From Sedimentisphaerales bacterium (lineage in GTDB: Bacteria > Planctomycetota > Phycisphaerae > Sedimentisphaerales > Anaerobacaceae): a DNA stretch of 64,000 nt. The translations under genes and the position numbers were made by a program. Shown here piece after piece: positions 6,894 to 58,605 of the stretch. Positions within the stretch are counted from its first letter, which is position 1; each line of letters starts with the position of its first letter. Where the stretch lies: contig JAFGEF010000017.1 in the NCBI GenBank assembly GCA_016931715.1, positions 1 through 64,000 of the forward strand. The letters are read 5' to 3'. The notes under the pieces were generated by a model. The model saw only the letters and a program-made list of their open reading frames with translations. It searched no databases and was not told the DNA's origin.

Positions 6894-7604
6894 GTGCCTA
6901 AAGTTGAAAATGTTCCTGAATATTTTGTCGAAGCACATAATCTGAGCAAGATATATTCGTCCGGCAAAATTGAAGTCGCAGCACTGCGTGACATTAATCT
7001 TGCAGTCAAAGAAGGGACATTCTGCGGAATTACAGGCACTTCAGGCTCCGGTAAATCCACTCTTATGAATTTGCTCGGAGGACTTGATACTCCCACATCA
7101 GGAAGTATAAAAGTTCAGGGTAAAGTTATATCGGAACTGAATTCAGATGAGCTTGCCCTTTACAGGCGATTCGAGGTCGGAATGATTTTTCAGTCATTCA
7201 ATCTTATCGCGTCCTACAGCGCGATGGAGAATGTCGCTTTCCCGCTGCTTTTTGCTGATGTCCCGAAAGCTGAAAGAACCAGGCGGGCGGAAGAATTACT
7301 CGAAAAAGTCGGACTGCTCGCCCGAAAAAATCACCGCCCTTCCGAACTATCAGGCGGTGAGCAGCAGAGAGTCGCTATCGCACGTGCATTGATAAATAAT
7401 CCGAAGCTGCTTCTTGCAGATGAGCCGACAGGAAACCTCGATAGTAAAACATCCCTGCAGATTGTTCAGACTCTCTCTGACCTGAACAAAAATCACGGCC
7501 TGACTATAATTATGATTTCACACGAAGAAGATTTACTGAACGAATTTGCGGACGATATAATTCATCTTCGCGATGGAAAATTTGTCGATAATAAGGAGTT
7601 TTGA
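6894..7604 (+). CDS. ABC transporter ATP-binding protein (LolD/MacB type)
   Basis: Walker A '[18 protein letters not shown]', signature '[15 protein letters not shown]', Walker B '[12 protein letters not shown]'. Confidence 0.95.
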
Positions 7605-7774
7605 AAAAATGGGAAAAGGCATATATTATTTAAGAAAATCGATGAACGATTTTCTTAAAATAATAAGTTTGAGCTTTGACAGGTCAGTTACATATAATAT
7701 CTTTCGTTTGAAAAGAAAAAATAACGATAAATATTTTTTCTTTTCAAAGTATGCCTTTTCCCATTTTTTCAAAA
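7599..7774. repeat. Nested-stem palindromic element A (outer 25-bp perfect inverted repeat enclosing two hairpins)
   Basis: ttttgaaaaaatgggaaaaggcata (7599-7623) / exact reverse complement 7750-7774; inner stems 7624-7641/7647-7665 (one-base bulge) and 7707-7723/7732-7748. Confidence 0.9.
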
Positions 7775-7794: not shown

Positions 7795-9168
7795 ATGCGA
7801 TTTACAGATTACATAGAAACATCTTTTTCCAATTTATGGAAGATGAAGCTTCGCACGTTCCTTACAACGTTCGGCGTAGTAATCGGAATCGGTGCGCTCG
7901 TTTCCATGTTCGCATTCGGCAAAGGTGTGCAAAAAAACATTACCGACACTTTCAACGAGCTTGGCTTGCTAAACTATATCAGTGTCTATCCGCGTTCAAA
8001 CAGATACCGCAGCCCGACAATACCAGATGACCCGGATGCACCGGGTTATGTCCCCCCTGTGGAAAATAAGAGCGAAAAAGCCCGCCTGCTTGATGAAGAT
8101 TTCGTAAAAGAGCTTTCTTCTTTGGAAGGCGTAGAAGCCGCATTTCCGGAAATCCGCTTTCCCGCTATGGTCAGATTCGATGATAAAGAAAATTTCGAGA
8201 TGGTACAGGCTTTGCCGGCCAAAATCTGCAACTCAGGATTTCTCAAGCTCCGGGAAGGCTCGTTTTATAATTCCGACGACGAATATTCAATCTTAATAAG
8301 CGATTCTCTGCTGCGGCGGATGGGCATTAAAGATATGAAATCCGTCATAGGCAAAAAAGTTGAGATTTCCACGATGGCGTTCGATGTGAGCATCGAGAGC
8401 ATCCCGAATATCATCTCTTTTTTGCAGGGCAAGGGACTTCCATTTACAAGTAAAAATTACCGGTTCACTATCTCCGGCGTGATTGAACTGATGGGAATGT
8501 CCGGACCTATACCAATGAGAACAAATATCCTAATCCCGTCAGGCATCTCGGAAAAGATGAAGAAAATACAAATCACAAGCATTTCAGATATTTTTCAATC
8601 CATAACGCAGCCTAAAGGCTATTCCATGGTCGGCATAAAACTTAAGGACCCGAAACACATCGATTCGGTAAAAAAATGGGTTGAAGATGCAGGCTTCAGG
8701 ACGTTTACGCTCATCGACCAGTTACAGGAAATAAAGACCGCTTTTATATTTATGGACTTGTTCCTTTTCGCGGTCGGAATGATAGCTATTACTGTCGCGT
8801 CACTGGGAATTATAAATACGCTCGTAATGTCAATCCTCGAAAGATACAGGGAAATCGGAATAATGAAAGCGGTAGGTGCAAGCAGCGCGGATGTAAAAAA
8901 AATATTCCTGTTCGAGGCAGGTCTTATCGGCTTTCTTGGCGGCGTGCTCGGACTTGTGCTCGGATGGATAGTTAGTACGATAATAAACTTTATCGCAAAT
9001 CAAATCCTTATCAGACAGGGTGTCCCGCACATGAGCTATTTCAGCTTCCCGTTATGGCTTTGCTTCGGCTCAATTATTTTCTCCATTCTAATCAGTCTCC
9101 TCGCCGGAATATATCCCACAATCCGCGCCTCACGCGTCGATCCAGTCGTAGCTCTGAGGCATGATTAG
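7795..9168 (+). CDS. ABC transporter permease (FtsX/MacB family)
   Basis: N-terminal 'LRTFLTTFGVVIGIGALVSM', C-terminal 'EIGIMKAVGASSADVKKIFLFEAGLIGFLGG', 'ASRVDPVVALRHD'. Confidence 0.93.
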   Translation: MRFTDYIETSFSNLWKMKLRTFLTTFGVVIGIGALVSMFAFGKGVQKNITDTFNELGLLNYISVYPRSNRYRSPTIPDDPDAPGYVPPVENKSEKARLLDEDFVKELSSLEGVEAAFPEIRFPAMVRFDDKENFEMVQALPAKICNSGFLKLREGSFYNSDDEYSILISDSLLRRMGIKDMKSVIGKKVEISTMAFDVSIESIPNIISFLQGKGLPFTSKNYRFTISGVIELMGMSGPIPMRTNILIPSGISEKMKKIQITSISDIFQSITQPKGYSMVGIKLKDPKHIDSVKKWVEDAGFRTFTLIDQLQEIKTAFIFMDLFLFAVGMIAITVASLGIINTLVMSILERYREIGIMKAVGASSADVKKIFLFEAGLIGFLGGVLGLVLGWIVSTIINFIANQILIRQGVPHMSYFSFPLWLCFGSIIFSILISLLAGIYPTIRASRVDPVVALRHD

Positions 9169-13986: not shown

Positions 13987-14025
13987 AGTTGGATATAACC
14001 TAACTCAACCTGGCCGTCTCAAACT

Positions 14026-14095
14026 GTCATACCCGCGCAGGCGGGTATCCAGTTATCCTATCACAGTATTGGATTCCCGCCTGCGCGGGAATGAC
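14026..14095. repeat. Inverted pair of 'cccgcgcaggcggg' dispersed repeat units
   Basis: gtcatacccgcgcaggcgggtatcc (14026-14050) versus ggattcccgcctgcgcgggaatgac (14071-14095), 23/25 complementary. Confidence 0.85.
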
Positions 14096-14253
14096 AACAT
14101 ACGGAAACTATAATTTCAGGGGAATAGTTTAACCACAAATGAACACGAATGAACACAAAAAACTTTATTATTTTTTAAGCCACAGAGGTCACCGAGGCCT
14201 CAGAGAAATAATGAAGAATCTATTAACCAGATAAAAATCACAATGTACTTTTT

Positions 14254-58312: not shown

Positions 58313-58394
58313 TTGCCAAAAAAACATTTATTCCACTTGAAAAACCAATTCTGAAGTTCCCTGTTTGATAGAATTATTAATATTTACGATGAGT

Positions 58395-58581
58395 TCTGCA
58401 AAATTGAAGTTAGACATATATTGTATGAAGAAAATCAGTTTAAAAGATTTTCTTCATACAATCTGCCGCTTTGCTGTAACTGCTTATATATGAATAATTT
58501 AAGTTAATTGCTTAAGAAAGAAAAAATTAAACACAAGCAATTTTTTCTTTCTTAAAGTATGTCTAACTTCAATTTTGCAGA
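58395..58581. repeat. Nested-stem palindromic element B
   Basis: tctgcaaaattgaagttagacata (58395-58418) / exact reverse complement 58558-58581; inner stems 58420-58436/58446-58462 and 58512-58528/58539-58555. Confidence 0.92.
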
Positions 58582-58605
58582 TTCCTTGTATTTACCAAAA
58601 AAAAC

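Follow-up and report, generated by a model that had tools for sequence, protein, structure and literature searches.

A probable MITE-like family of mobile elements with a conserved three-stem layout in Planctomycetota

Introduction

The stretch of DNA analysed here, 64,000 nucleotides of a Sedimentisphaerales bacterium (contig JAFGEF010000017.1, positions 1 to 64,000; hereafter the window), carries two elements, A and B, in which one outer stem encloses two hairpins while the outer stems are largely unrelated in sequence. The question raised by this locus is what kind of element keeps such a fold; the original prediction on element B had considered a mobile element, a regulatory element and an undescribed system. 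Overall, the analysis indicated that element B is probably a copy of a MITE-like non-autonomous DNA transposon which is moved in trans by a putative transposase.

Elements B and A in the window

Arm pairing computed in the window showed that element B occupies 58395-58581, with outer arms of 24 bp and two inner hairpins, H1 and H2, with arms of 17 bp each, all of them 100% complementary. These coordinates and stem lengths, together with the spacer of 49 nt, were exactly as predicted. The predicted layout also stood and only the extent of the element had to be corrected, as B is slightly longer and includes 6-nt tips (58389-58394 and 58582-58587). The features of element B with its flanks and the position of element A are as follows.

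58381..58387, no strand assigned: left copy of the target-site duplication (TSD), TATTTAC, with an additional G after it at 58388
58389..58394, + strand: left tip, ATGAGT, retained among the copies and reading ATGAG in those of normal orientation
58395..58418, + strand: left outer arm, terminal inverted repeat (TIR) of 24 bp that pairs perfectly with the right outer arm
58420..58462, + strand: hairpin H1, arms 58420-58436 and 58446-58462 (17 bp), loop of 9 nt, conserved through compensatory changes
58463..58511, + strand: spacer of 49 nt, the fastest-evolving part (11.6% divergence in family B), with a TAACT-type motif inside
58512..58555, + strand: hairpin H2, arms 58512-58528 and 58539-58555 (17 bp), loop of 10 nt
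58558..58581, + strand: right outer arm, TIR of 24 bp, pairing with the left outer arm
58582..58587, + strand: right tip, TTCCTT, which reads ATCCTT in most copies of family B and is unlike the left tip
58589..58595, no strand assigned: right copy of the TSD, TATTTAC, with an additional G before it at 58588
7599..7774, + strand: element A, second family, same architecture, with H1 at about 7624-7665 and H2 at 7707-7748

The outer arms of element A were 25 bp long (7599-7623 and 7750-7774), and the junction motifs expected to be common to both elements were present, with CATATATT after the left arm and AAAGTATG before the right arm. Element A separates an ABC-transporter ATPase ORF (6894-7604) from a MacB/FtsX-type permease gene (7795-9168), and the upstream ATPase ORF takes its stop codon from the left arm of the element (7599-7604). 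A structural finder which required an outer stem of at least 15 bp enclosing two hairpins recovered exactly two elements (A and B) in the window, and five shuffled versions of the window yielded none. In addition, a REP-like palindrome (TGTCATACCCGCGCAGGCGGGTATCCA / TGGATTCCCGCCTGCGCGGGAATGACA) was observed at 14025-14096 of the window, and a similar GC-rich repeat was nested inside another T-element (L139, 1839-2093).

Copy number and evidence of mobility

A search of element B against its own 4.5-Mb assembly showed at least 40 copies with 88-95% identity among the best 40 of 164 candidates. The actual copy number of family B is higher, as the ends of several contigs fall within a copy. Family A had about 17 full copies in the same assembly, most of them with 77-82% identity, and many half copies which, when read in context, were relics truncated on one side or the other, and several adjoined gene starts. 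In one chimera (L041; G000 C75) the left arm and body were of the A type and the right arm was of the B type. Elsewhere, a truncated right end (L115; G014 C461) directly abuts what is probably the start codon of a gene with an ArsA-type ATPase-like beginning. The elements were 176-199 bp in length, with perfect outer arms of 24-26 bp plus the tips, and did not contain any transposase ORF.

Aligned flanks showed that the conserved tips outside the arms are ATGAG on one side and AAGGA or AAGGC (read inward) on the other, with direct repeats farther out. Since the right tip differs from the left tip, the tips report the orientation of a copy. Of 185 flank pairs, in which most copies were counted in both orientations, 43% had a perfect repeat of 7 bp or more at the tips, no farther than a few bases from the expected junction, compared with 1.4% in shuffled controls in which left and right flanks of different copies were paired. 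The TSDs were 7-15 bp in length with one of 17 bp, an extra base was sometimes present, and the exact repeat was absent in about half of the copies. At one locus of genus g56, an empty site was found where an insertion common to G258 and G356 was absent from G221. In the two filled sites ATTTCTGACA flanks the element on both sides, whereas G221 has a single diverged target with almost contiguous flanks. The TSDs, which had been proposed as a check, and the empty site both indicate a MITE-like, non-autonomous DNA transposon, and the suggestion that A and B are related structured mobile elements was supported.

Conservation of the stems

Among 36 diverse copies, 97.6% of the cells in 46 pairs were able to pair and 20 of these pairs had double-sided changes compared with a shuffled mean of 9.2 (102 cells against 24.7 shuffled), while slid controls collapsed. 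These values agree with the expectation that the fold is kept while the sequence diverges. Since H2 was poorly aligned and only 6 of its pairs were modelled, the evidence for covariation comes from the outer stem and H1. The arm sequences were very different in distant hosts, with an H1 of GCTCAAGGAAATC in G258 and CAACCAAAGCCC in G099, and the three stems remain. Covariation alone does not prove folding, since two arms recognised by a single protein would covary as well.

Divergence in family B was 1-2.5% for the stems compared with 11.6% for the spacer, and in family A 0.5-1% compared with 10.8%. The stems of both families were roughly 5-20 times closer to the consensus than the spacer, which indicates that they are constrained in the copies that seed new ones. 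For the CSMAG_2034 family, the H1 and H2 stems showed 2.6-3.9% divergence against 5.3% for the spacer and only the outer stem was clearly better kept. Most stem changes in resident copies were one-sided, hence correction by template switching is not rapid. Compensated double changes numbered 7 in families A and B together, compared with about 0.8 expected under independence, and one double change was found between the orthologues of G258 and G356 (H2 GGAGG/CCTCC and GGAGA/TCTCC, respectively).

Interior inversion and proposed mechanism

The orientations of the tips and of the interior were independent; 56 copies had the tips of both ends in the usual order and in 14 both tips were inverted. 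The inverted state required 10 changes on the A/B tree (39 normal and 12 inverted copies) compared with 11.0 when labels were shuffled, so the inversion looks recurrent, though many forks are weakly supported. In two A copies, the H1 loop (L034) and the H2 loop (L036) matched the family loop only as a reverse complement. Template switching between inverted repeats during replication has arm homogenisation and spacer inversion as its reported signature (PMC8604942), and stems can be maintained by template switching via compensatory changes (PMC8794818). The two loop inversions favour a role of template switching, and the 'regeneration of the fold' that the original prediction had suggested fits the recurrent inversions and the homogenisation of arms by this process (PMC8604942).

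Each end of the element consists of a perfect TIR of 24-26 bp, a short asymmetric tip and a perfect palindrome just inside (H1 on one side and H2 on the other), and the whole element can hence fold as a T-shaped cruciform. In the proposed mechanism, the putative transposase supplied in trans would act on both ends and make a staggered cut of about one helical turn, which would produce the 7-15 bp duplications of AT-rich, mostly intergenic targets. The arms and palindromes would serve as cis signals read by the transposase and would hence be constrained in active copies. The arms would stay complementary while drifting because both must fit one recognition, either of sequence or of folded DNA, and template switching during replication may copy one arm onto the other and may also invert the loops and the whole interior.

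The perfection of the arms argues for folded-DNA recognition or template switching. It is unlikely that the moving enzyme recognises the three-stem fold rather than its sequence; it would then be a structure-dependent recombinase of an undescribed kind which excises or copies the element in the form of folded DNA and inserts it with a one-turn duplication, with the flipping of the interior belonging to the reaction. A similarly low probability was given to folded DNA, as a T-shaped cruciform or a single-strand hairpin like those of parvovirus terminal repeats, being the substrate of a structure-recognising recombinase with interior inversion arising directly from its rolling-hairpin-like replication. 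Such a substrate would suit the arms, which are far more perfect than usual IS ends, as well as a three-stem geometry that is kept across genomes while the sequence changes, interior flips relative to the tips that are scattered over the tree, and TSDs of variable length with an occasional extra base. However, template switching alone explains both the flips and the arm identity, the H1 and H2 loop inversions are not predicted by a terminal-resolution scheme, no candidate enzyme was found, and Y1 transposases occurred both with and without the element.

Alternative readings as RNA

The strong covariation could also reflect the function of each copy as a regulatory or other structured RNA, such as a 5'-UTR element, a terminator or an sRNA, which happens to be repeated, and 62 of 69 copies with assignable neighbours were located between tandem or divergent genes, often less than 100 bp from an ORF. 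This explanation is very unlikely. Across 123 copies, the outer stem was 95.6% Watson-Crick with 39 G.T and 39 A.C mismatches, and all stems together had 72 G.T and 91 A.C mismatches, with H2 favouring A.C. A selected RNA should favour G.U, so the lack of an excess of G.U over A.C gives no pointer to RNA. A search in Rfam produced no match at the gathering score and only chance-level matches at E ≤ 1. Moreover, uncompensated one-sided changes prevail in resident copies, the interior is present in both orientations, and the TSDs and empty site indicate mobility. The suggestion of a regulatory RNA was not supported, given the lack of wobble excess and of an Rfam match.

A retrotransposed, SINE-like RNA element inserted by target-primed reverse transcription would account for the variable TSD length and extra bases at the junctions but is extremely improbable, since the interior is inverted relative to the tips in about one quarter of the A and B copies, there is neither a tail nor a consistent 3' end, and relics without the left or the right half, with no TSD by eye in the few inspected, look like later deletions and not 5' truncations.

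Distribution in Planctomycetota

An exact-pattern scan of GTDB genomes showed that the T-shaped layout was present in the Planctomycetota MAGs CSMAG_2034, Phycisphaerae SM23_30, Sedimentisphaerales Zod_Metabat.96, RS_18_13, B3T3L8 and CSMAG_2123. The GC content of the elements ranged from 0.25 to 0.53 across Planctomycetota. Exact-pattern matches in Bacillota and other phyla were not recovered by the structural finder and were taken as chance matches of the short pattern. With the covariance model, 15 of 398 genomes of the class were positive, mostly from one family and many with as many copies as could be scored, including one (G098) that is probably false as its match (L208, 44.8 bits) seems to be an inverted repeat of another kind. 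A full copy was also observed on a 1.3-kb contig (L174, WVZO01000121) of a Ca. Aminicenantes bin, by misbinning or horizontal transfer. Three longer variants of 227-231 bp (L135, L175 and L159) were observed in Sedimentisphaerales Zod_Metabat.96 (JAFGTG01), with complementary tips (TTGAGTTTTG...CAAAACTCAA), and these are perhaps closer to the ancestral form.

Search for the transposase

A search with PF01609, PF03400 and PF01797 showed no transposase or autonomous copy with matching ends among the loci inspected. IS1 transposase (PF03400) was found in 0 of 18 genomes while positive controls were detected, so an IS1-derived origin is not indicated. The sole DDE_Tnp_1 element in the source genome was without the arm motifs and its ends appear unrelated. 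Y1 genes were present in 18 of 18 genomes, whether or not copies of the element had been detected there, and a Y1 gene located 117 bp from a copy in G408 was judged to be there by chance. Lone A ends were considered as termini of longer elements and proved to be truncated relics, and a junction scan of the loci showed end partners only about 150-260 bp apart. The original prediction had named simple MITEs matching a known IS, or a lack of covariation, as the outcomes that would count against it; the covariation was strong and no matching IS was found.

Comparison with known elements

Like bacterial MITEs, to which they are similar in size, the elements have long TIRs and short direct repeats, target AT-rich intergenic DNA, are present in many copies, lack an ORF and are able to fold. 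QMITE2 of Coxiella, for example, has TIRs of 23-29 bp, a core of 113-145 bp and direct repeats of 7-9 bp (PMC10969869). They differ from MITEs in that each end has a conserved perfect palindrome (H1 or H2), the three-stem layout persists across genera with different sequences, the TSD length is more variable (7-15 bp) and the interior is repeatedly inverted. For insertion sequences, IS231/ISH8-type ends begin with CAT. IS4-family insertion sequences have direct repeats of 8-13 bp (PMC2266710), and the duplication of about one helical turn that varies by a few bp makes this a plausible kind of mover, but no IS4-type element with matching ends was found.

Repeated intergenic palindromes and the presence of Y1 transposases in these genomes are also reminiscent of REP, BIME and REPIN sequences with RAYT (Y1). 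REPINs are shorter and have no TSD, whereas the elements here have TIRs, tips and TSDs, and Y1 genes were also found in genomes without detected copies. The ITR of parvoviruses (AAV-type) has one outer stem enclosing two hairpins and shows flip/flop inversion of its interior. Here, in contrast, the structure is the whole element, which is chromosomal and located between TSDs without a replication protein, and no homology is claimed. Finally, arm homogenisation, compensatory double changes and spacer inversion are shared with hairpins maintained by template switching (PMC8604942, PMC8794818), but those are single loci, whereas in the present case the process would operate on a mobile and multicopy family and on three stems together.

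Significance

The element behaves as a MITE-like family, since it has many copies and terminal inverted repeats, its targets are AT-rich and for the most part intergenic, and its distribution is patchy. An undescribed system of another kind was not supported. The 'undescribed system' reduces to a variant of the known MITE kind, unless the mover recognises structure. What emerges is an apparently new MITE-like family which is widespread and is distinguished by its conserved layout of three stems. No description of it was found in the literature searched.

Covariation as strong as this is usually taken to indicate a functional RNA and is here found in mobile DNA with no sign of RNA, which calls for caution in RNA discovery based on covariation. 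The missing transposase is a concrete target, and the family is widespread in uncultured Planctomycetota. Since arm sequence, pairing and interior orientation can each be read independently from the many copies, they provide a natural data set for weighing selection on the fold against template-switch repair.
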